Shown piece by piece: positions 676-11,005 of a stretch of DNA of 11,005 bases. The translations under genes were made by a program, and so were the position numbers. Origin of the DNA: Flavobacteriaceae bacterium (GTDB lineage Bacteria > Bacteroidota > Bacteroidia > Flavobacteriales > Flavobacteriaceae); contig JAUVCP010000033.1 of the NCBI GenBank assembly GCA_030590765.1, positions 1-11,005 on the forward strand. Reading direction: 5' to 3'. Position 1 is the first letter of the stretch. Each line of letters begins with the position of its first letter. The notes beneath the pieces were generated by a model. The model saw only the letters and a program-made list of their open reading frames with translations, had not been told where the DNA came from and did not search any database.

Positions 676-1533
676 TTATTCCGTTCTGTCATAATATAAT
701 GAAGCGGCTCCTAGGATAGCAATATTTGGCGTATTTGTGAATTTCAATTCTAAATTGTTAACTGAATCGGAATAAGGAAATTTTTTAATTGTTTCCATCA
801 TTGATCTTTCAAAGAGTTCTTTTGATTTTGATACAGATCCACCAATAATTATATTTTTAGGATCTACTGAAAACATGATTGTTTTAATTGAATTGCCAAT
901 GTGTTTGCCAAATTCTTCAAAGGCCATTATGGCTTCTTTGTTTCCGTTTTTTGCTTTCTTGAAAAGATCTTCGCCATTTGAATTGTGAAAAGTTTTAAAA
1001 AACTTTCCACTACAATAATCTTCATAGATACTGTCTAAATATGGAATTGAGCCAAATTCACCCGATCCGCAATTTGCATCTTTTAATAAATGACCATCTG
1101 TGACAATACCGGCACCCATCCCTGTTCCTAAGGTGATACCCACAAAATTATCATCATCTTTTGCCACTCCAAATTTACCTTCCCCCAAGGCAAAACAATT
1201 TGCATCATTATCTAAAAAAACAGGTACATTATAGTGTTTTTCTAAAATACTTTTTAAATGAATCTTATCCCATGAAGGAATATTTTGAACATGATAAATG
1301 ACGCCATTTTTTCTATCTACCAGACTAGGAACACCTATCCCAATGCCTTCAACGTTGTCTATAAAAACTTCATCAATGATCTCAATTATTTTATTGATAA
1401 CATCTTCAGCTTTACTTGAGTCATTAGGAATCAGGTCATAGGCTTGTTTTATTATTTTACTTCCTTCTATAAGACCTGCCGCAACTTTTGTTCCTCCAAG
1501 ATCAACACCAATTATTTTTTTATCTAATTCCAT
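676..1533 (-). CDS. ROK-family sugar kinase (glucokinase-like)
   Basis: A complete 285-residue ROK-family protein, a normal length for a single-domain sugar kinase with no N-terminal helix-turn-helix, so an enzyme rather than a NagC/Mlc-type repressor. Visible motifs are the ATP phosphate motif D11-L-G-G-T-K16, the sugar-site/catalytic block L-D-N-D110-A-N with D110 as presumed general base, the second phosphate motif T134-L-G-T-G-M-G-A-G142, and a C-terminal IIIGGSVS adenosine-site segment. The classical ROK zinc site is missing: the GExGH His is replaced by S162 and only C155 and C173 remain nearby. The start ATG directly abuts the TAA of the transporter gene (TAAATG), indicating translational coupling. 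Expected role: cytoplasmic phosphorylation of the hexose imported by the MFS carrier. The substrate (glucose, N-acetylglucosamine, mannose or other) cannot be read from the sequence; GH9 nearby makes glucose or glucosamine attractive guesses. Confidence 0.9.
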   Translation of the reverse strand: MELDKKIIGVDLGGTKVAAGLIEGSKIIKQAYDLIPNDSSKAEDVINKIIEIIDEVFIDNVEGIGIGVPSLVDRKNGVIYHVQNIPSWDKIHLKSILEKHYNVPVFLDNDANCFALGEGKFGVAKDDDNFVGITLGTGMGAGIVTDGHLLKDANCGSGEFGSIPYLDSIYEDYCSGKFFKTFHNSNGEDLFKKAKNGNKEAIMAFEEFGKHIGNSIKTIMFSVDPKNIIIGGSVSKSKELFERSMMETIKKFPYSDSVNNLELKFTNTPNIAILGAASLYYDRTE

Positions 1534-2787
1534 TTAAATATCTTTTTTCTTTGTTAGATCTATTGTTTTGTTGTTTATCAAAGGTTTTGCCCAAAATCCG
1601 ATACTTAATATATATGCAAGCAGTATAAAATTGAAAAACATGCCAACTTTTAGTGATGTTAGATCACTTATAAAACCTATTAAAAGTTGTACAACAGCAC
1701 CTCCCATAATTCCACTTACCAATATGCCGGCAAAGGCACCGTGGTGTTTGTTCATAGAATTTAAGGCCAATGAGAAAATAATTGGATACATAACAGATAA
1801 GAAGAAACCACTTGCCTGAAATGCATAAAGCGAAGTACTTGCAGGTCCTATTAGAGCAAATCCCAGACTAATTATTGCCAGTAAAGAGAATAGCTTTAAA
1901 ACGAATTTACTGTCTAAAAATTTCAGTAGGATCAGACCTAAAATCCCTCCTATGGTCATTAATCCCCAAAAATTTGCAACTGCAACAGCGCCAATTGTTT
2001 CATAATCATATCCATGGTAGGTTTGTAAGAATTTCGACATCCAATAGGATATTCCTTGTTCTACGCCAACATAAGCAAAGATTCCGAAAAAGAATAATAT
2101 TACCGTTTTGTTTTTAAAGAGTGCAAAATAGCTATCTTTTGTTCCAACTTTTTCATCTTCCTTTAGGTCGACCTTGGGAAATTTGATAAAAAAGATCAAA
2201 GCGATCATTATTAGGCTGAACAAAGCAAAGATCCAGTAAATTGATGTCCATGACATATCAGGCAATGTTACTCTTGATAAGAAGTTAATAACTGGATTTG
2301 TATTTTCAGGATCACCCATATTTGTTACCAGCCAAGAGTAAACCAACGGGCTGACAAATGAAGCTGCTCCAAAAATCAATTGTGCCATCACGGAGGTGAA
2401 AGCGTAGTTTTCTTTACCGCCGGATTCTCTTAAAAGTGGATTTATAACCACTTGTAAAATTGCCATTCCGGAGCCTATTGAAAATAGTGAAAAGAGGAAT
2501 ACTCCAAAAGATGGAATTCCAACAAATAATAAAGAGGCTGTAAACGCCAGAACAAATCCAAAAAGCATCATCTTTTTTTCACCATATTTTTCTGTCATGA
2601 ACCCGGCTGGGATCGACATAACTCCATAAGCAATAAAAAAAGAAAAAGGTAAGAAACCTGCCATGGTTTCAGTTAGGTCATAACTTGATGAGACACTTGG
2701 GTTTAAAGCTCCAAGAATGTTTGTTAGGAAAGAAATAACAAAAAATGACAATAAGATCAGTGCAACTAAAATGTAATTTTTTTTCAT
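1534..2787 (-). CDS. MFS sugar transporter, FucP/GluP/NagP-like
   Basis: A 417-residue polytopic inner-membrane protein of the Major Facilitator Superfamily, typical in length for 12-helix sugar:proton symporters. Hydrophobic segments start at residue 5 (ILVALILLSFFVISF) and continue through two six-helix halves separated by a charged cytoplasmic loop (around residues 205-220, with KFPKVDLKEDEKVG). Between helices 2 and 3 is an MFS loop motif variant (MTEKYGEKKMML). The segment near residues 112-147 with NPLLRESGGKENYAF followed by a GAASFVSP block is characteristic of the fucose/glucose/N-acetylglucosamine (FucP/GluP/NagP) branch. It is the first gene of the leftward operon and its stop touches the ROK kinase start, so import and phosphorylation are coupled. 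Substrate is inferred only from neighbours (GH9, ROK kinases): a monosaccharide or possibly a short oligosaccharide. Start ATG at 2785-2787. A promoter candidate lies about 160 bp upstream. Confidence 0.88.
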   Translation of the reverse strand: MKKNYILVALILLSFFVISFLTNILGALNPSVSSSYDLTETMAGFLPFSFFIAYGVMSIPAGFMTEKYGEKKMMLFGFVLAFTASLLFVGIPSFGVFLFSLFSIGSGMAILQVVINPLLRESGGKENYAFTSVMAQLIFGAASFVSPLVYSWLVTNMGDPENTNPVINFLSRVTLPDMSWTSIYWIFALFSLIMIALIFFIKFPKVDLKEDEKVGTKDSYFALFKNKTVILFFFGIFAYVGVEQGISYWMSKFLQTYHGYDYETIGAVAVANFWGLMTIGGILGLILLKFLDSKFVLKLFSLLAIISLGFALIGPASTSLYAFQASGFFLSVMYPIIFSLALNSMNKHHGAFAGILVSGIMGGAVVQLLIGFISDLTSLKVGMFFNFILLAYILSIGFWAKPLINNKTIDLTKKKDI

Positions 2788-2944
2788 TTTTTTTATTGAT
2801 TTAGTATTGTTTGTAAATGTTTTTAATATTGTTTAACAGATGTCTTTGGAGTTTTAAAACTTATGATGATCCATAAATGCTTAAAAAGCACCCTATAACT
2901 ACTGTTTACTATTTTATCAAGGTTAATGATGAAAATCAATTCTT

Positions 2945-2975
2945 CAAAAGTATTAATAAAAAATATATATGCAAA
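2945..2975 (-). promoter_or_regulatory. Candidate promoter of the MFS-ROK-ROK operon
   Basis: Read on the minus strand there is a -33 element TTTG (2975-2972), a 19-bp spacer and a -7 element TACTTTTG (2952-2945). This matches the Bacteroidota TTTG / TAnnTTTG consensus and has the same spacing as the leuS promoter candidate in this window. Transcription would start near 2938, giving a leader of about 150 nt. The -33 element lies inside the inverted repeat at 2970-2983, so a repressor bound there would block sigma contact. Confidence 0.5.
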
Positions 2976-2983
2976 ATATTGCA
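2970..2983. promoter_or_regulatory. Candidate LacI-family operator TGCAA-AATA-TTGCA
   Basis: A perfect inverted repeat with 5-nt arms TGCAA and TTGCA and a 4-nt AT centre. Its overall TGNNA...TNNCA shape resembles LacI-family operators, but the usual central CG is absent. It covers the -33 box of the leftward promoter candidate. The right arm continues into TTGCACAA (2979-2986), a sequence found twice more in this intergenic region. Binding by the LacI protein encoded at 5193-6218 is an inference. Confidence 0.4.
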
Positions 2984-3122
2984 CAACTAAATTATTTTAT
3001 ATTTTAAATGATACAATCTCTTGAGGCTATTAAAATAGTGAATAACTGGTATTTCTTAATTGCTTTTATAAATATAAAGCTCTAATATATTTTGTATAAA
3101 TATTAGAAACAAAATGAAATAA

Positions 3123-3132
3123 ATTGCACAAT
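3123..3132. promoter_or_regulatory. Second TTGCACAA motif copy (ATTG-CA-CAAT)
   Basis: The 8-mer TTGCACAA occurs again at 3124-3131, inside a short inverted repeat with arms ATTG and CAAT. It lies between the two divergent promoter candidates, about 145 bp from the first copy. Function is inferred only from recurrence and position. Confidence 0.3.
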
Positions 3133-3150
3133 AAATATATTTAGTATAAT

Positions 3151-3182
3151 TTTACAAGCATAATATTGCATCAGTAATTTTG
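3151..3182 (+). promoter_or_regulatory. Candidate GH9 promoter with TTGCA motif in its spacer
   Basis: TAATTTTG at 3175-3182 matches the Bacteroidota -7 consensus TAnnTTTG. A weak -33 element (TTTA, 3151-3154) lies 20 bp upstream. The spacer contains AATATTGCA (3162-3170), identical to nine bases of the first operator candidate (2975-2983), so a repressor site within the promoter is plausible. Transcription from here would give a leader of about 215 nt before GH9. A second TAATTTTG at 3214-3221 is an alternative -7 box but has no -33 partner at normal distance. Confidence 0.35.
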
Positions 3183-3216
3183 ATTTTCAATAATAGGATT
3201 TTAACTCGAAAATTAA

Positions 3217-3228
3217 TTTTGTGCAAAA
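3217..3228. promoter_or_regulatory. Third motif copy, inverted repeat TTTTG-TG-CAAAA
   Basis: This inverted repeat contains TTGTGCAA (3219-3226), the reverse complement of TTGCACAA. It overlaps the end of the second TAATTTTG box (3214-3221), so it sits where a repressor could block GH9 transcription or elongation. Assignment as an operator is inferred. Confidence 0.33.
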
Positions 3229-3403
3229 AATACTATTTCAGGAACAGTTGGAGATGATAAAAAGGTTATTAAGGATGTTGCTGTTATATTTAAATGTTTT
3301 AGGGAGCCATTTTTTTGATTCTCTTTTCAAAACATTAACACATGAGAACAAAAAGTAAAAATAATAATTGATTTTTTAATTTCATGATTAAATTTACAGT
3401 AAA

Positions 3404-5173
3404 ATGATACATATACAATTAGGTGCCTTGCTGGTATTAACACTATTATTTCCAAAAACTTCTTATTCTCAGAATAACACAAATATGGTGTTAGTCAACC
3501 ACCTTGGTTATGAACAATATGGTGAGAAAAAGGTGGTTTTTCAAACTGCTTCTAATGTAAATCCTAAGACATTTAATGTGGTTGATCATTCAGGAAAAAC
3601 GGTTTTTAAAGATAATTTTAAAGATGGAGGTAGAGTAGATAACTGGCATACCGGAAATGTTTTTGCCGGTTTGTTTGATAAATTTGAAAAACCTGGTAAG
3701 TATTTCGTTGAAATTGATTTTGAAGGAAAGAAATTTAAATCTTCTGTATTTGAAATTAAAAAAGGGCAATTCGTTGACAAAACGATGTCATTAATGCTCA
3801 AAGGATTTCAATCTATTCATCCTGCTGAAAAATATGAGAATTGGGATTCAAATATATCCTTTTATGGAACAAGGAAAGATAAGAGGGATGTTCACGGAGG
3901 GTGGTACGATGCTTCAGGTGATTATAGTAAATATTTAAGCCATTTATGCTATACAAATTATATGGCTCCACAGCAAACACCAATGGTTGTTTATAATCTA
4001 TTGGTTTCTGCGAATAATATTTCTAAAAGCCATGGAGACTTATCAAAAGAAATGATCAAAGAATCTGCATGGGGTGCAGATTTTTTAGTTCGTATGCAGG
4101 ATCCGGAAGGGTATTTTTACACCATAGTTTTTGATACCTGGACCAAAGACGAAACAAAAAGAGAAATTTGTGCATATGAAACAGAACATGGAAATCGTAC
4201 CGAAGATTATAAGGCTGCATTTCGCGAAGGGGCAGGTATTAGTATTGCTGCATTAGCCCGTTTAAGTGCCGAAAAAGTTTCTGGGGAATATAGTTCTGCT
4301 GTTTATCTTAAGAAAGCTGAAAAAGGTTTTGCTCATTTGTTACAGAATAATTTGAAATATTGTGATGATGACAAGGAAAATATTATTGATGATTATTGTG
4401 CTTTAATGGCAGCAACAGAATTATATAATGCTACACATAAAGAAAATTATCTTGACTATGCTCGATTAAGGGCACAAAATTTAGCAAACAGAATTAGTAA
4501 AGATGAAAATTTTAATGGATGGTTTAGAGCAGATAATGGTAATCGTCCATACTTTCATGCTGCAGAAGCTGGATATCCTTTAGTTGCTTTAAGTAGATAT
4601 CTGGATGTTGAAAAAGATGAAGCTAAAAGAATTATTGCTATAGAAACTATTAGGCAGTCAGTTGAATTTCAACTTGATATAACTAAAGAGGTGAATAATC
4701 CTTTTGGTTACCCAAGACAATATGTAAAAGCTATAGATGAGAGTGAAAACAAAAGTTCATTTTTTGTTCCGCATAAAAATGAATCAGGTTATTGGTATCA
4801 GGGGGAAAATGCACGTCTTGCTTCTTTAGCTTCAGGATTTAATTATAGTAAGAAATATATGTTGCCTAGCCAACAAATGGAAGTAGGTAGTTTTGTACAG
4901 AATCAGATCAATTGGATTTTGGGTCTTAATCCCTATGATATGAGTATGCTTGATGGGTTAGGTAGAAATAATCCTGAGTATTTAGAACCTCATGACTGGA
5001 ACTACAAAGGAGGAATTGCTAATGGTATTACTGCAGGGGTAAATGATGAATCTGATATTGCTTTTTTACCAAGGCCGCAAGATCAGGATCCAGCTCAGAG
5101 ATGGAGGTGGCCTGAACAATGGATCCCTCATGCAGGATGGTTTATGTTAATGGTGTCATCAATGGAAAGGTAG
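3404..5173 (+). CDS. Secreted family 9 glycoside hydrolase (endoglucanase-like)
   Basis: A 589-residue exported GH9 enzyme. Residues 1-22 form a signal peptide (hydrophobic LGALLVLTLLFP, probable cleavage at SYS|QNN). Residues about 28-118 form the N-terminal Ig-like domain common in GH9 (VNHLGYEQYGEKK...). The rest is the (alpha/alpha)6 catalytic domain. The nucleophile/base motif is GGWYDASGDYSKYL at 165-178 with D169 and D173. H530 lies in the substrate-site segment EPHDW. E571 in WRWPEQWIPHAGWF is the likely acid. There is no carbohydrate-binding module and no C-terminal sorting domain, and the protein ends just after the catalytic fold. The start is the earliest possible ATG, since an in-frame TAA lies at 3389-3391. 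GH9 members are mostly beta-1,4-glucanases but include exo-glucosaminidases and cellodextrinases, so the substrate is open. It diverges from the transporter/kinase operon and converges with lacI. Confidence 0.92.
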   Translation: MIHIQLGALLVLTLLFPKTSYSQNNTNMVLVNHLGYEQYGEKKVVFQTASNVNPKTFNVVDHSGKTVFKDNFKDGGRVDNWHTGNVFAGLFDKFEKPGKYFVEIDFEGKKFKSSVFEIKKGQFVDKTMSLMLKGFQSIHPAEKYENWDSNISFYGTRKDKRDVHGGWYDASGDYSKYLSHLCYTNYMAPQQTPMVVYNLLVSANNISKSHGDLSKEMIKESAWGADFLVRMQDPEGYFYTIVFDTWTKDETKREICAYETEHGNRTEDYKAAFREGAGISIAALARLSAEKVSGEYSSAVYLKKAEKGFAHLLQNNLKYCDDDKENIIDDYCALMAATELYNATHKENYLDYARLRAQNLANRISKDENFNGWFRADNGNRPYFHAAEAGYPLVALSRYLDVEKDEAKRIIAIETIRQSVEFQLDITKEVNNPFGYPRQYVKAIDESENKSSFFVPHKNESGYWYQGENARLASLASGFNYSKKYMLPSQQMEVGSFVQNQINWILGLNPYDMSMLDGLGRNNPEYLEPHDWNYKGGIANGITAGVNDESDIAFLPRPQDQDPAQRWRWPEQWIPHAGWFMLMVSSMER

Positions 5174-5180
5174 ATAATCA

Positions 5181-5200
5181 AAAGATAAAATTTTACTTTA
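5181..5200. terminator. AT-rich inverted repeat between convergent genes
   Basis: AAAGATAAAATTTTACTTTA lies between the GH9 stop and the end of the lacI-type gene and includes the latter's stop codon. It forms an imperfect inverted repeat centred on the perfect palindrome TAAAATTTTA (5186-5195). With no GC in the stem core it would be a weak hairpin. It is proposed only because it is symmetric and sits at the junction of two converging genes only 19 bp apart. Confidence 0.2.
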
Positions 5201-6218
5201 GTTTTAGTGATGAACTTTTTATAATAAATTTTGGAGGTATAATGATAGTCTCATCAATAATTTCACCTTTTTCTATCTGTTTAAATAATTTCTTTGCTGC
5301 TATTTCACCTATTTCAGAACCTGAATATTGAACTGTGGATAGAGTTGTTGCGGAAATAGTATAATTTTTATCACTACTAAAACTAGCTAATAATATATCT
5401 TTTGGCGCGCTCAAATTATTCATTGACATCCAATTGATAATTTGATTAGCTACCAATGTGCTAGGTGCAAGAATTGCATCTGGGAGTTTATTTTTTTTAA
5501 AAAACGAATCTAATTGGTTAAAAATATTTTTTTTATTAATTGTATTTGAAAAGATATGTTCTTTAGTGTATTTATGACCTGCTTCTGCTATTGCATCTTT
5601 ATATCCTATAACAATATCAGCATAATATGGGTTGTTTAGATTTCCTGTAAAAATGACAATATTTTTACATTTCATTGAAATAAAATGTTTTACAGCTTTG
5701 TATGACCCATGAGAAATATCCGGAATTATTTTACATGAATTAGGAGTGTGATCTGTTTTATTGATAAAAACAGTTGGAATATTTTGATTTAATAATTGGT
5801 TTAAATGACTAGTGTCAGAACTTTTATCAAATAAAGCTACAATTACTCCTTTAATAGTTAGATCTATCAGGGAGCTTGCATATATTTTTTCAATTTCGAG
5901 TGAATTATTTGTATAAGCGATATACAAATTATATTCCTTTTTTAGATAAAATTCCTGAATGGAATTGATAGCATCCCTGTAAAATGGAGCATTTAGATCA
6001 GGAACCATAAAACAAATTGTTTTTGTTTTATCAGCATTCATATATGCTGGAATATTTGGTTGGTAACCTAATTTTTTTGCAGCTTCCCAAACTTTTTCTT
6101 TGGTTGCCTTGCTTATTTTTGGATGATTATTTAGAGCTCGGGAAACTGTCGAAGCCGAAATATTAATTTCATTTGCAATGTCCTGAACTGTAGGATTTTT
6201 TTTATTGAGATTTTTCAA
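5193..6218 (-). CDS. LacI-family transcriptional regulator (TTG start)
   Basis: A 341-residue LacI/GalR-type regulator. Residues about 10-29 are the helix-turn-helix (TVQDIANEINISASTVSRAL), followed by the third helix and the hinge region LGYQPN at 50-55. From about residue 67 there is a periplasmic-binding-protein-like sensor domain (ICFMVPDLNAPFYRDAI, then two alpha/beta lobes). In the hinge, the Leu that many LacI proteins insert into a central CpG is replaced by N61 (PNIPAYMN), which fits CpG-less operators. No ATG is available: the frame runs back to a stop at 6249-6251 with only TTG at 6216-6218 as an ordinary start, which gives the usual short N-terminal arm. It converges on the GH9 gene. 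It most likely controls GH9 and the divergent transporter/kinase operon, sensing a sugar released by GH9. Effector unknown. Confidence 0.88.
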   Translation of the reverse strand: MKNLNKKNPTVQDIANEINISASTVSRALNNHPKISKATKEKVWEAAKKLGYQPNIPAYMNADKTKTICFMVPDLNAPFYRDAINSIQEFYLKKEYNLYIAYTNNSLEIEKIYASSLIDLTIKGVIVALFDKSSDTSHLNQLLNQNIPTVFINKTDHTPNSCKIIPDISHGSYKAVKHFISMKCKNIVIFTGNLNNPYYADIVIGYKDAIAEAGHKYTKEHIFSNTINKKNIFNQLDSFFKKNKLPDAILAPSTLVANQIINWMSMNNLSAPKDILLASFSSDKNYTISATTLSTVQYSGSEIGEIAAKKLFKQIEKGEIIDETIIIPPKFIIKSSSLKLK

Positions 6219-6243
6219 AAAAGGGTTAGATTTGATGGATAAG

Positions 6244-6251
6244 CAAATTTA
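6244..6251 (-). promoter_or_regulatory. Candidate -7 box of the lacI-type gene
   Basis: On the minus strand TAAATTTG (6251-6244) matches TAnnTTTG and would start transcription about 20 nt before the TTG start, a leader length like that of leuS here. The only upstream TTTG (6268-6265) is just 13 bp away, shorter than normal, so the promoter is uncertain. Readthrough from the amidohydrolase gene is the alternative. Nothing else is recognisable in the 98-bp gap 6219-6316. Confidence 0.3.
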
Positions 6252-6316
6252 AAAAATGTTATCACAAATTGATTGAAAATTGAATATTTAATCTAAAAAT
6301 ATAGAATTAATTGTTT

Positions 6317-7951
6317 CTAATTTGTGTCAGCTGTACTAACTCGCTCTCCATTAAGCCAGGTTTCTTTTACTTTTATATCGGGAATTTTATCTAAATCAAT
6401 TTTCATAATATCTTTATCTAATATAACAAAATCAGCAAATTTACCAGGTTCAATACTTCCTTTTTCATTTTCTTCAAAATTGGCATAGGCAGCCCAGATT
6501 GTCATTCCTTTTAATGTTTCCTCTCTTGTTAAGCCATTTTCAATTTCAAATCCACCATCAGGGTAGCCTTTTGTATCTTTTCTGGCAACAGCAGCATAAA
6601 AAGTAAGCATGGGGTTTACCTTCTCAACAGGAAAATCTGTTCCTAAAGCTACTTTACCATTAATTTCCAATAGTTTTTTATATGCATATGCGTTTTTAAT
6701 TCTCTCACTTCCCAACCTATCTTCTGCCCAATACATATCACTTGTAGCATGGGTTGGTTGTATAGAAGGAATAATATCAGTAAAATAATAAAAGTCACTT
6801 GGTGCAATTATTTGTGCATGTTCCATACGCCAGCGCCTATTTGTTTGACTTTTTAAAACATCTGCATAAGTTTTTAAAATAAAAGCATTTGCTGAATCCC
6901 CTATTGCGTGGGTATTCATTTGAAAATCTGAATTGGCAATTGCTTTGGCAATCTTTCGAAGCGTTTCGGAATCAGTTACCATGGCACCGAAATGTTTATC
7001 TCTATCGCTATAAGGTTTTTTTAAAGCGGCACCTCTAGACCCTAAAGCGCCATCTGCATAAACTTTGAAGGAACGAACGTTTAGTCTATCCGATTTAAAA
7101 ATACCATTTTCAATATAATGCTCCAGATTTTTTTCACTAACTGAAACCATTGCATAAATTCTAATGCTTAATTCATTTGCCAATTGCAGACTGTCAATTA
7201 GTTCAATGGTTTCTCTGCTTAATCCAGCATCATCAACCGTTGTTAGTCCATAGCTGAAACAATATCTTTCAGCATCTTTCAGAGCTTGTATAGCTTCATT
7301 TTTACTTTCTTTAGGGATGATTCTGGAAACCAAATCCATTGCATTATCGATTAAAACACCAGTAATTTTTCCGTTTTTTTTAATGATTTCACCGCCTTTG
7401 ATTTTAGTTTTTTCATTAATTCCAGCCAGATCTAATGCAGCCTGATTAGCGAGTAAGGCATGACCGTCAATTCTTCTAACAGCAACAGGTGTTTTAGGAA
7501 ATAATCTGTCTAATTTGTCTTTTGTTGGATATTCTTTTATCTTCCAGTCATTTTGATCCCATCCTCTTCCTGTAATAAAATTGCTGTTTTTTTCTTTTTG
7601 AAAAGATTTGATTTTTTCTAATACTTCCTCAAAGCTTTTTGTGCCAGTGAGATCAACTTTTTGCATAGACAATCCAAGACCATAAAAATGGCAATGTGCG
7701 TCGATTAGACCGGGGTATATGATTTTTCCCTTAGCATTGTATTCTTTTGTAGCCTTAAAATTTGATTTAATTTCTTTGGATGTTCCAACCCCAACAAACT
7801 TTCCGTTTGTTATCGCAAAAGCTTCAGCCATGCTAAAACCTTCATCAACTGTATAGATTTTTGCATTTGTAACGATATAATCTGCGTGCTGCTTATCTGT
7901 ACAGGAAAAAAAAGACAACAACAAGACAAAGCATATAAGGGGTTTATACAT
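6317..7951 (-). CDS. Exported amidohydrolase-3 (YtcJ-like) lipoprotein
   Basis: A 544-residue metal-dependent hydrolase of the amidohydrolase superfamily, family 3 (YtcJ / N-substituted formamide deformylase-like). Residues 1-17 look like a lipoprotein signal peptide (LICFVLLLSFFSC, lipid-attached Cys at C17), so it is probably anchored in the envelope. The metal-site motif D84-A-H86-C-H88 follows an N-terminal beta-sandwich segment (ADYIVTNAKIYTVD). Further metal or active-site residues are K296 and D300 in FKVYADGALGSRGA, H348 in NTHAIGDSA, H378 in MEHAQ and D439 in GTDFP. The C-terminal beta-sandwich returns with SIEPGKFADFVILDKD. The motif set is complete, so it should be an active enzyme. 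Substrates in this family are rarely known, and none can be assigned here. It is divergent from leuS, with 121 bp between them, and lies 98 bp upstream of the lacI-type gene in the same direction. No convincing promoter was found. Confidence 0.88.
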   Translation of the reverse strand: MYKPLICFVLLLSFFSCTDKQHADYIVTNAKIYTVDEGFSMAEAFAITNGKFVGVGTSKEIKSNFKATKEYNAKGKIIYPGLIDAHCHFYGLGLSMQKVDLTGTKSFEEVLEKIKSFQKEKNSNFITGRGWDQNDWKIKEYPTKDKLDRLFPKTPVAVRRIDGHALLANQAALDLAGINEKTKIKGGEIIKKNGKITGVLIDNAMDLVSRIIPKESKNEAIQALKDAERYCFSYGLTTVDDAGLSRETIELIDSLQLANELSIRIYAMVSVSEKNLEHYIENGIFKSDRLNVRSFKVYADGALGSRGAALKKPYSDRDKHFGAMVTDSETLRKIAKAIANSDFQMNTHAIGDSANAFILKTYADVLKSQTNRRWRMEHAQIIAPSDFYYFTDIIPSIQPTHATSDMYWAEDRLGSERIKNAYAYKKLLEINGKVALGTDFPVEKVNPMLTFYAAVARKDTKGYPDGGFEIENGLTREETLKGMTIWAAYANFEENEKGSIEPGKFADFVILDKDIMKIDLDKIPDIKVKETWLNGERVSTADTN

Positions 7952-8017
7952 GGTTTTAAAACATTAAGATAATAATTTGCCTTGTAAAGGTAAGGATTAT
8001 TATACTATAAATACTAC

Positions 8018-8048
8018 TTTGTGCTTTGCTTCTTATGGAGTATCTTTG
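8018..8048 (+). promoter_or_regulatory. leuS promoter, Bacteroidota -33/-7 type
   Basis: TTTG (8018-8021), a 19-bp spacer and TATCTTTG (8041-8048) match the Bacteroidota promoter consensus TTTG / TAnnTTTG. Transcription would begin near 8054, leaving only about 19 nt of leader before the leuS ATG. That is too short for a T-box or attenuator. This is the best-formed promoter in the window and supports the phylum assignment. Confidence 0.6.
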
Positions 8049-8072
8049 CAAACTTTAAGAATTTAGCTACAG

Positions 8073-11005
8073 ATGAAATACAACTTCAATGAAATAGAGG
8101 CCAAATGGCAAAAATATTGGGCAGATAATCAGACTTTTAAAGCAGAAAACAGAAGTGATAAACCAAAATTTTATGCGTTAGATATGTTTCCTTATCCAAG
8201 CGGGGCAGGTCTACATGTTGGTCACCCACTAGGTTATATTGCAAGTGATATATATGCAAGATATAAAAGACATAAAGGATTTAATGTTTTACACCCCATG
8301 GGATATGATTCTTTTGGTTTGCCAGCAGAACAATATGCTATCCAGACTGGTCAGCATCCTGCAAAAACAACAGAAGAAAATATCAAAACATATCGTAGAC
8401 AATTAGATCAAATTGGTTTTTCATTTGACTGGAGTAGAGAAGTACGTACTTCTAATCTGGATTATTATAAATGGACTCAATGGATATTTATCCAGCTTTT
8501 TGAATCGTATTATTGTAAAGATGCAGATCAGGCACGCCCAATTGATGAATTGGTTGAAGTTTTTAATCTGGAGGGGAATGGGAAGATAAATGCTGTTACT
8601 GATGATGATGTTGAGTTGTTTACCACAGAGGAATGGAAAAATTATTCCAACCAGAAGCAGCAGGAAATATTAGCTAAATATCGCCTGACTTTTTTATCAG
8701 AAACCGAGGTGAACTGGTGTCCAGATTTGGGAACTGTTTTGGCAAATGATGAAATTGTAAATGGTGTTTCAGAAAGAGGAGGTCATACTGTTGTTCGCAA
8801 AAAAATGAAACAATGGTCTATGAGAATCACTGCTTATGCGCAAAGATTATTAGATGGTTTAAATACCATTGATTGGCCACAACCTTTAAAAGATTCGCAA
8901 ATAAACTGGATTGGGAGATCAGAGGGGGCGATGGTTACATTTAAAGTCCTATCCCCAACCCTTTCCGTCGGAAAGGGAGTTCGGGATGCGGGTTATTTAA
9001 CAGGTAACCCTGATTTAGCTGGCATAATGTTGGAAAAGGCAAAAGAAATGAGAGCGAATCCAACTCAAGCAGAATCAGTTCTTTGGCAACAATTAAAGAG
9101 TAAAAAGTTAGGTATTAAGTTTAGGCAACAACATTTGATAGAAGAATTTATAGTTGACTTTGTATGTTTAAAAAAGAAATTAATAATTGAAGTTGATGGT
9201 AAAATTCACGATTCTCAAGTGGAGAAAGATAAAGAAAGGACTTTAAAGCTTGAGAATAAGGGATATAAAATAATTCGCTTTAAAAATAAAGAAATAAATA
9301 GTAATTGTGACAAAGTAGTTGAAAGAATTAAACTAGAGTTAGAGAACAGGAAAGTCCTTCCCTCTGGGAAGGATTTAGGATGGGAAATTAATGTATTTAC
9401 AACCCGCCCCGATACCATTTTTGGGGTGTCATTTATGACCTTAGCTCCAGAACATGAATTAGTAGAAAAAATCACTACCGAAGAATATAAAGCCAATATT
9501 CAAAAATATATAGAAGCAACTTCCAAAAGGAGCGAAAGAGATAGAATGGCCGATGTAAAAACTATTTCTGGTCAGTTTACAGGAGCATATGCAATTCATC
9601 CGTTTAACGGAAAAAAAATTCCTATCTGGATTGGCGATTATGTTTTAGCGAGTTACGGAACTGGTGCTGTAATGGCGGTTCCTTGTGGTGATCAAAGAGA
9701 TTATGATTTTGCAAAACATTTTGACATTAAAATTCCTAATATTTTCAAAGACATTGATATTTCTGAACAGGCATGTGAAGATAAAAGTGCTATAATCGCC
9801 AATTCTGAATTTATTTCGGATATGCCTGCAAAAAAAGCGATAAAAAGAATAATTTATGAGCTGGAACAAAAAGGAATTGGTGAAGGAAAAATAAATTATC
9901 GTTTACGTGATGCTGTGTTTTCCCGTCAAAGATATTGGGGAGAGCCATTTCCAGTTTTTTATAAAGATGATTTGCCTCAAATGATCGATGTTGAATATCT
10001 TCCGATTGAACTCCCTGAAGTAGAAAAATACCTGCCAACAAAAGATGGAAAACCACCATTAGGAAATGCTACTGTTTGGGCGTGGGATACCGTTCAAAAC
10101 AGAATAGTTGATAATGATAATATTGATCATAAAACGGTTTTTCCTTTAGAATTGAATACTATGCCTGGCTGGGCAGGTAGTTCCTGGTATTTCAATCGTT
10201 ATATGGATGCTCAGAATACTGAAAAACTTGCTAGTGAAGATGCTTTGAATTATTGGCAAGATATTGATCTGTATATCGGTGGTAGTGAACACGCTACAGG
10301 GCATTTGTTGTATTCTCGATTTTGGCAAAAATTTTTATTTGATAAAGGATTGGTTCCTGTTGATGAATATGCTAAAAAACTGATCAATCAAGGTATGATT
10401 CTCGGGACAAGCGCATTTGTTTATCGCTGGGAATTTGAAAATGGAGATACTTCAGGGAAACCGAAAAAAATGATTTTTGTTAGTAAAGATCTGATGGAGA
10501 AGATTATCAGGGAACGCAGTACCGTTGAGAATTCAAAACATAATTTAGATAATGATTCTATTGATCTGCTGGCAACCGCAAAAATAAAAAGTGATCCAAA
10601 AAATAAATGGTCACATTTTACACCAATTCATGCAGATGTTTCTTTTGTAAATGCATCTAACGAATTAGATATTGAAGCTTTTAAAAATTGGAGACCTGAA
10701 TATAAAGATGCGCAGTTTGTTTTAGAAGATGGAAAATTCATTGTTGGTCGTGAAGTAGAAAAGATGTCTAAATCAAAATACAATGTTGTAAACCCAGATG
10801 ATATTTGTGATGATTATGGAGCAGATACCTTGCGTTTGTACGAAATGTTCTTAGGTCCGTTAGAGCAGGCAAAGCCATGGAATACAGCGGGAATAACTGG
10901 TGTATATGGATTTTTGAAAAAACTTTGGAAACTTTATCACAATGGAGAGAACGGAGACTTCTATGTATCAAATGCAGAAGCAACCAAAGATGAACTGAAA
11001 ACTTT
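8073..11005 (+). CDS. leuS: Leucyl-tRNA synthetase with embedded DUF559 endonuclease domain (3' end outside window)
   Basis: Cytoplasmic class Ia leucyl-tRNA synthetase, which charges tRNA-Leu. An in-frame TAG at 8064-8066 fixes the ATG at 8073. The frame is open for 977 codons to the window edge, with the anticodon-binding C-terminus still to come. Landmarks: HVGH (H48-H51) for ATP binding; a Bacteroidota-type insertion around residues 160-190 before [19 protein letters not shown] leading into the CP1 editing domain; the editing motif FTTRPDT (442-448); [16 protein letters not shown] with the editing aspartate at D543; [13 protein letters not shown]; and KMSKS (897-901). Between K291-V292 and about E438 lies roughly 145 extra residues with a DUF559 nuclease domain, described separately. 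All synthetase motifs flanking the insert are intact and the frame is preserved, so the protein is probably functional and about 145 residues longer than its relatives. Divergent from the amidohydrolase gene. Confidence 0.93.
8951..8987. repeat. Left border hairpin of the DUF559 cassette
   Basis: Perfect 8-bp arms CCCTTTCC (8959-8966) and GGAAAGGG (8970-8977) enclose a 3-nt loop. Outer arms ATCCCC (8951-8956) and CGGGAT (8982-8987) extend it as an imperfect stem. It is much more GC-rich than the surrounding gene and is translated as part of LeuRS ([13 protein letters not shown]). It follows the direct repeat AAAGTCCT at 8943-8950. Confidence 0.7.
9351..9380. repeat. Right border hairpin of the DUF559 cassette
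   Basis: Perfect 8-bp arms TCCTTCCC (9355-9362) and GGGAAGGA (9366-9373) enclose a 3-nt loop, with AAA/TTT outside extending the stem after one mismatch. The layout AAAGTCC...stem...GGATTTAGG resembles, from memory, a short palindromic repeat scattered through many Bacteroidota genomes. It is translated as [10 protein letters not shown] and begins with the same AAAGTCCT found at the left border. Confidence 0.7.

Follow-up and report, generated by a model that had tools for sequence, protein, structure and literature searches.

The leuS gene encodes leucyl-tRNA synthetase (LeuRS). In a Flavobacteriaceae bacterium it is interrupted in frame by a nuclease cassette. The cassette lies on contig C188, which with its 11,005 bases is the whole of the window considered here; the genome is fragmented and 67% complete. 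The leuS frame starting at position 8073 runs for 977 codons with no stop up to the contig end, and translation passes through the insert with neither stop nor frameshift, as the original prediction, made from the sequence of the window, had claimed. The product matches TIGR00396 (leuS_bact) with 778 bits. It contains the HVGH (residues 48–51) and KMSKS (residues 897–901) sequences, which we take to play their roles as motifs, and the sequence FTTRPDT, presumably the editing motif, which is invariant among 46 LeuRS carriers of the insert (the window protein and 45 others picked by hand from the 120 hits listed).

The cassette stands between F290 and I439, at a loop that has about eight codons in insert-free relatives. 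Within the genus, 16 LeuRS without the insert show the uninterrupted site, and the limits proposed originally, 8943–9383, proved correct to one codon. LeuRS domains from Pfam are found both before and after DUF559 in the window protein. PF04480 covers residues 321–423 with the score of 118 bits (cut-off 20.6) and profile positions 5–108 of 109, so the domain is complete, again in agreement with the prediction; the insert extends about 30 residues before it and about 15 residues after it. All 46 carriers share R351, Q353, H354, D362, D375 and H379, and at least 90% of them have E373. Both the fold and the sequence of the insert match the homing endonuclease I-Bth0305I (PDB 3r3p) with its catalytic E, D and H, that is, the insert has the EDxHD core. 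The structure model of the insert is good in the core, whereas that of the whole LeuRS has a mean predicted local distance difference test score of 64.8 and was used for one point, the location of the insert between two strands. None of 20,000 mononucleotide shuffles of the insert remained open. The insert has a G+C content of 0.331, and the remainder of leuS one of 0.354.

The ratio of nonsynonymous to synonymous substitution rates (dN/dS) is 0.05–0.10 for the host part and 0.14–0.17 for the intact insert in the comparisons of genomes G000, G016 and G003, these values being rough, as dS is high (0.6 to 2). The intact insert is under purifying selection. One LeuRS match apiece is seen in the window genome and in five further insert-bearing genomes of the genus, and likewise in the one-contig genomes G160, G154, G228 and G142, with the best four candidates per genome scored. 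Hence the interrupted leuS is probably the working copy. A second intact leuS, which would have spoken against this, is seen neither in the window genome, where the negative is weak given the 67% completeness, nor in the other insert-bearing genomes of the genus.

Features of the interrupted leuS gene, in window coordinates
Feature	Position	Strand	Basis or remark
leuS, leucyl-tRNA synthetase interrupted in frame	8073..11005	+	open frame; 3' end beyond contig
Whole in-frame cassette, 148 codons	8943..9386	+	compared with the 16 LeuRS of the genus that lack it
Left border repeat with palindrome CCCTTTCC-GTC-GGAAAGGG (8959-8977)	8943..8990, right limit approximate	+	hairpin scan
DUF559 (PF04480) nuclease domain, EDxHD/Vsr type	9033..9341	+	Pfam, conservation, fold
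Catalytic-type residues D362, E373, D375, H379	9156-9158, 9189-9191, 9195-9197, 9207-9209	+	
Right border repeat AAAGTCCTTCCCTCTGGGAAGGATTTAGGATGGG, 34 bases	9351..9384	+	pattern searches
LeuRS editing motif (assumed) FTTRPDT, residues 442-448	9396..9416	+	sequence; three residues past cassette end

Distribution and movement of the LeuRS cassette

The fusion, initially considered possibly unique, is instead one of many. With the insert as the sole query, proteins of 537–1710 amino acids gave 309 matches; judging by the listing, all 120 listed ones carry the LeuRS editing domain PF13603, and carriers among the matches listed, some of them from named isolates, have about 1,080–1,235 residues. 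In the family, 101 of 199 genomes have DUF559 at E ≤ 1e-3, the weakest matches partly belonging, probably, to other families. The insert is present at the same LeuRS loop in 21 of the 199 genomes, the window included, and in two of them (G142, G023) it is dead. All 22 genomes of the genus have LeuRS: three with the intact insert (G000, G016, G003), three with the dead one (G021, G005, G009), lacking the catalytic D and H, and 16 with none, of which 15 have an 11-residue loop. The same position is occupied in further Bacteroidota, among them Bacteroidales, Sphingobacteriales and Chitinophagaceae (L232, L234, L235, L237–L240). Thus, the cassette shows a combination that inteins also have, in-frame insertion at a fixed conserved site with sporadic presence.

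The dead forms of G021, G005, G009, G023 and G142, spread over three genera, have lost D375, H379 and the palindromes at the borders but retain the domain. Their dN/dS, subject to the same high dS, is 0.27–0.38 in three pairs.

The presence of the insert was mapped onto a LeuRS tree of 79 genomes (53 with none, 21 intact, five dead); L140 and L145, having no anchor, and G012, because of its length, were left out, and 40 of the non-carriers were picked by hand, partly for long frames. The mapping requires 19 changes, eight of them forced by well-supported branches, and shuffled labels need 22.1, hence the presence hardly follows descent. In approximately unbiased (AU) tests the inserts reject the host tree (p = 2.8e-4; 1.9e-4 for intact inserts alone), and the host LeuRS likewise reject the insert tree. 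The identities of hosts and inserts are correlated at 0.24 (325 pairs). The nearest host, that of G021, is 88.5% identical to the window LeuRS, yet its insert is only 34% identical, while in G003 and G199 the hosts are 76 and 74% identical and the inserts 79 and 78%, the G199 match coming from another genus.

Of 301 similar pairs, 225 have a smaller synonymous divergence (pS) in the insert than in the host, with z > 2 in 103, these counts being inflated by overlapping pairs and by genomes that enter twice (L082/L210, L067/L231 and others). The clearest pair is formed by two Polaribacter bins, with pS of 0.27 for the host and 0.036 for the insert. For Bizionia algoritergicola and UBA5079 the respective values are 0.40 and 0.165; identity is 99–100% over the final two thirds of the insert and falls to 0.89 just beyond the right junction. 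Since the divergence of the insert does not match that of the host, the insert sequence has been exchanged apart from the host gene, that is, it has passed between lineages independently of it. We are highly confident that this is a mobile in-frame cassette.

No close relatives were found in phage and plasmid collections. The former yielded four distant records with at most 37% identity, one of them annotated as a homing endonuclease, and the latter 39 records, with the best identity of 50% among the 12 listed.

Border palindromes and the dispersed repeat

The window cassette has two G+C-rich palindromes, one per side of the nuclease; the hairpin scan places the right one, TCCTTCCC-TCT-GGGAAGGA, at 9355–9373, within the 34-base right border. 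This border repeat is dispersed in the genus, with 12 sites (at most three mismatches) in four of the 22 genomes and none for the reversed-pattern control. Two of the 12 sites belong to LeuRS, as cassette borders in G000 and G016, and the rest mostly lie outside long frames. The copy number is small, two in the window genome. A solo copy of the 34-base palindrome is read in frame within a 237-codon protein of G002 (L097:1114–1824), which, from its motifs, we take to be polysaccharide deacetylase-like. Another, in L092, is situated just upstream of a likely start, and those in L098 and L159 each touch a frame of the opposite strand at its end.

The hairpin scan required a perfect stem of at least 7 bp, a loop of 3–8 and at least four G+C in the arm, and covered inserts in LeuRS, RecG, HemD-like, HisD and MetH proteins and free genes; related copies are not independent, hence p-values from these counts would be too small. 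The 21 intact LeuRS inserts have 42 flanks, of which 23 bear a hairpin; among control windows taken from these loci the figure is 3 of 322. The corresponding figures are 6/12 against 1/105 for RecG, 10/14 against 1/107 for HemD-like, 2/2 against 1/13 for HisD, 4/20 against 2/159 for MetH and 7/26 against 9/207 for free genes. The dead LeuRS inserts have hairpins at none of their 10 flanks. The evidence is evenly divided on the palindromes being functionally a part of the unit, because hairpins on both sides are seen in just 5 of the 21 intact LeuRS inserts.

The LeuRS loop is variable in other respects. In DUF559-free Flavobacteriaceae it often has other repeat-like in-frame peptides, such as IASEAKQS, ERSRSEQDVIS and AELVEAPQ (L132, L135, L137, L148, L152, L155 and others), as if the loop before FTTRPDT collected dispersed repeats of many kinds. 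The 11-residue loop of L054, L041 and L057 (G002, G018 and G006, respectively) is built of short repeats of the AATTCAA/AGTTCAG type, read as NSEFRI and NSKFKI, and the loops of L125 and L149 are likewise of this type, as seen at the protein level. In L082 several palindrome-like peptides follow one another.

DUF559 domains in other host proteins

In the family genomes, 39 of 125 matches with E ≤ 1e-20 are situated in frames of at least 250 amino acids: 19 in LeuRS, six in MetH (two of them in one protein of G228), six in RecG, seven in HemD-like proteins and one in HisD. In the phylum, DUF559 is found at E ≤ 1e-10 in 167 of 392 genomes; of the 150 matches listed, 51 lie in frames of at least 250 amino acids, and 40 of these 51 were inspected. 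We call a nuclease internal if host sequence is present on both its sides.

LeuRS has a second insertion site, before GWAGSSW, in L199 and L202. In MetH there are two internal sites, one of them before GDVHDIGKN, which we take to be the cobalamin motif; a single MetH-type frame, L102 (G228:C1:744500–752500), has two related DUF559 domains at two sites. The RecG insert is located between DEQHRFG and TATPIPRT, presumably helicase motifs. In four of five HsdR proteins the nuclease stands just upstream of HTQGSGKS, the likely Walker A motif, and in L170 it is farther upstream. Other internal hosts are HsdM-like, Eco57I-type and type ISP enzymes, UvrC, two UvrD-type helicases, IcmF and TsaB. In the cases inspected, several insertions thus adjoin a presumed signature motif of the enzyme, as is the case with inteins. 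Elp3 of Patescibacteria bin C14-29 (L252) has an internal DUF559 with adjoining palindrome-like peptides, and the phenomenon may therefore reach beyond Bacteroidota. HemD-like, HemF, HisD, glutamine-amidotransferase (PurQ/PurL type) and HutG frames were not counted as internal, as DUF559 is at the frame end; these may be neighbours read through. The HemD and HsdM labels are sub-threshold, 42 bits at the NCBIfam cut-off of 223 and 86 at 243, respectively, with one protein scanned for each.

In the domain tree, cassettes are strongly tied to the host and the site by lineage. The tree comprises 168 of 173 domains, with up to 10 host labels corrected by hand and five dead domains relabelled. The loci are biased to long frames and high scores, hence free-standing members of the LeuRS, MetH and RecG half are probably under-sampled; 160 short relatives, 120 of them listed, are outside the tree.

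Possible mechanism, alternatives and related systems

We consider it likely that the LeuRS insert is a selfish nuclease cassette of the homing type that does without splicing and is tolerated as a protein domain. This agrees with the original suggestion of a selfish in-frame cassette at a tolerated loop, which fits the fixed site, patchy presence, discordant trees, dispersed border repeat, dead derivatives and absence of a splicing domain; we infer the selfish spread from these observations. On balance we also lean towards spread by the cassette's own nuclease, based on the fixed site, the patchiness and the incongruent trees. The nuclease, within LeuRS or as a fragment, would cut cassette-free leuS alleles in the conserved DNA next to FTTRPDT, the supposed target side of the insertion site, and repair off the occupied allele would copy the cassette in. 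No splicing would be needed, because the loop tolerates a folded domain. In less frequent jumps to new genes, the palindromes could serve as ends or substrates. Decay of the nuclease may follow when no empty allele is left, as in the five genomes with dead forms. The homing cycle with decay after fixation is known for inteins and introns; the one proposed here is alike, but proceeds without splicing.

Several observations weigh against this interpretation. Cutting and homing are deduced, neither having been observed for the LeuRS cassette. The recent exchanges are between occupied alleles, and ordinary recombination could produce them as well, with no homing implied. Homing repair often co-converts the flanks, and raised leuS identity beside the insert was not seen in 12 pairs, nor in four pairs. 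Losses, or replacement of leuS by horizontal gene transfer, can account for a part of the patchiness, and the carriers are slightly clustered, as 36 of 500 shuffles required as few changes as observed. In five of the 301 pairs z is below −2, the insert being older than the host by pS. In the clearest pair, L223 opens only 117 codons before the insert, about 170 codons short, so that this leuS copy is possibly broken or the product of misassembly. Fine branching is unsure, since there are 151 columns in the insert alignment and 126 in that of the 168-domain tree. Hairpins are found on one side in 13 of the 21 intact LeuRS inserts and on neither side in three, and any hairpin is present in only three of ten MetH inserts. 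Finally, the insert has no long DNA-binding tail like that of its match, I-Bth0305I.

An alternative is that the palindromes themselves are the mobile unit, with DUF559 as cargo or the mobilising enzyme, which some copies would have acquired or evolved together with, and that they move as in-frame repeats inserted into loops, similar to Rickettsia palindromic elements (RPE) or repetitive extragenic palindromes, by repeat-based transposition and not by allelic homing. The dispersal of the right border repeat, including the in-frame copy in L097, the palindromes flanking DUF559 in RecG, HemD-like, HisD, MetH and free genes, and the row of palindrome-like peptides in L082 would agree with it. Still, we regard it as unlikely: unlike scattered repeats, each lineage of cassettes keeps strongly to its host and site, the LeuRS of G002 and G010 has no cassette although these genomes contain the solo repeat, and at least one side lacks a clear hairpin in 16 of the 21 intact LeuRS inserts. 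Even less probable is an old accessory LeuRS domain, serving in tRNA binding or quality control and inherited vertically with many losses. While the occupied position in further Bacteroidota groups and the persistence of dead forms at the dN/dS given above could be explained in this way, the tests reject the insert tree for the host and vice versa, synonymous sites make the insert the younger of the two in many pairs, and the same kind of nuclease resides in many unrelated proteins. Moreover, the plain 11-residue loop is seen in 33 of 53 non-carriers, thus the losses would need precision. The patchiness and the border repeats also set the cassette apart from an ancient fixed domain without such repeats.

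Several hosts (HsdR, HsdM-like, Eco57I-type and type ISP) are restriction-modification proteins, as would be expected if DUF559 were a defence domain riding on abundant proteins and cutting invading DNA. This explanation is quite improbable, as LeuRS, MetH and RecG have, to our knowledge, no defence role, and neither the fixed LeuRS site nor host-specific lineages would be expected from the need for defence. Finally, given that the window is an entire contig of a fragmented, incomplete genome, assembly or binning could have joined a nuclease gene to leuS. Such an artefact is rejected with near certainty, since the same fusion is present in the isolates Bizionia algoritergicola, Muricauda sp. 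TY007 and Confluentibacter flavum and in the single-contig genomes G154, G160 and G228.

The nearest known systems to the homing-type cassette proposed here are inteins, RPE and the phage ShiLan element. Inteins keep a fixed site, are patchily distributed and leave dead derivatives. The cassette shares with them in-frame insertion into conserved genes beside conserved motifs, the lineage-fixed site, patchiness, discordant trees and dead derivatives, these general features of inteins being taken in part from PMC11855218. It differs from them by having no splicing domain, by its size, 148 codons with about 105 for the nuclease, by the apparently retained domain and by the palindromic borders. 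In line with the original claim of no splicing signals, no intein families were found in Pfam and NCBIfam scans up to E = 1; an intein is also rejected because the insert begins with K and has little room. An RNA intron is rejected as well, as Rfam gave no intron match up to E = 1 in 8000–11005, the single sub-threshold hit, sR9, being outside the insert.

RPE are likewise dispersed palindromic DNA, in frame in conserved genes and tolerated; sections of PMC2229807 give 105–146 bases for them and class them as repeats not encoding proteins. Like them, the window repeat is dispersed and palindromic and forms part of coding frames, that of LeuRS and a deacetylase-like one, but it is not a short non-autonomous element with no protein domain, as two palindromic repeats of the LeuRS cassette frame a complete nuclease domain. 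PARCEL repeats (PMC2996958) are a neighbouring kind of element. The ShiLan element of actinobacteriophage methylases is, according to excerpts of PMC11855218, also a disjunct homing-type insertion with no detectable splicing through which the host frame reads. The LeuRS cassette has the same disjunct distribution and no splicing signature, but the ShiLan nuclease is of the HNH type, out of frame and in phages, whereas that of LeuRS is in the host frame, not an alternative one, and in cellular genes. The same source mentions a seemingly lone LAGLIDADG insertion, apparently inherited vertically.

I-Bth0305I, a protein of a phage-type mobile intron, joins its nuclease domain to an extended DNA-binding region and recognises a target of nearly 60 base pairs (PMC3943268); in contrast, the LeuRS nuclease is fused within a cellular protein, not located in an intron, and has no such region. 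Free-standing DUF559/Vsr-like proteins (PF04480, NF007294) have the same family and fold as the insert, but are stand-alone genes; one with a DUF559 domain, Caulobacter VsrA, is linked to cytosine methylation in PMC12907096. Databases already title some carriers 'DUF559 domain-containing protein' or 'leucine--tRNA ligase', hence, as far as the literature was searched, the fusion architecture is on record yet unexplained. One study reportedly treats unorthodox homing elements of yeast. No description of in-frame nuclease cassettes in cellular housekeeping genes was found in the open PMC literature, subscription papers and outside preprints being beyond this coverage; DUF559 occurs in 14 papers there, none of which, judged by its title and the opening of its abstract, deals with insertions of this kind.

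It is their association with self-splicing sequences that, according to PMC3943268, gives homing nucleases access to highly conserved genes. Here, a nuclease of the homing type resides in conserved cellular genes of many genomes, with no splicing seen. If our interpretation is correct, it would become possible to measure what foreign domains cost essential enzymes and how well they are tolerated, natural loops accepting a domain of about 105 residues would be available in LeuRS, MetH, RecG and UvrC, the dead forms of five genomes would show a possible path from a selfish nuclease to a host domain, and DUF559 fusions in databases would be no evidence of function. The chances are about equal for and against a still wider class, spread over Bacteroidota: selfish in-frame nuclease cassettes living as permanent unspliced domains of essential proteins, each lineage homing beside the most conserved motif of one host (the editing motif of LeuRS, the cobalamin motif of MetH, the helicase motifs of RecG, Walker A of HsdR), with palindromic ends allowing rare jumps, and some lineages losing catalysis to become host domains. 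Such a class would give homing nucleases a third route into conserved genes, besides introns and inteins.

In genome G154, which also holds the unspliced LeuRS cassette, L112 (G154:C1:233500–239500, minus strand) contains a frame of 717 amino acids with a Vsr-like nuclease and the stretch NGVVVHNC, which in our view resembles an intein end, with no NCBIfam match; it is possible that L112 is a spliced counterpart. The neighbours of leuS in the window, in the interval 676–7951, presumably encode, by the look of their sequences, a ROK-type sugar kinase, a sugar transporter, a LacI-type regulator, an amidohydrolase and a glycoside hydrolase-like protein of 589 amino acids.

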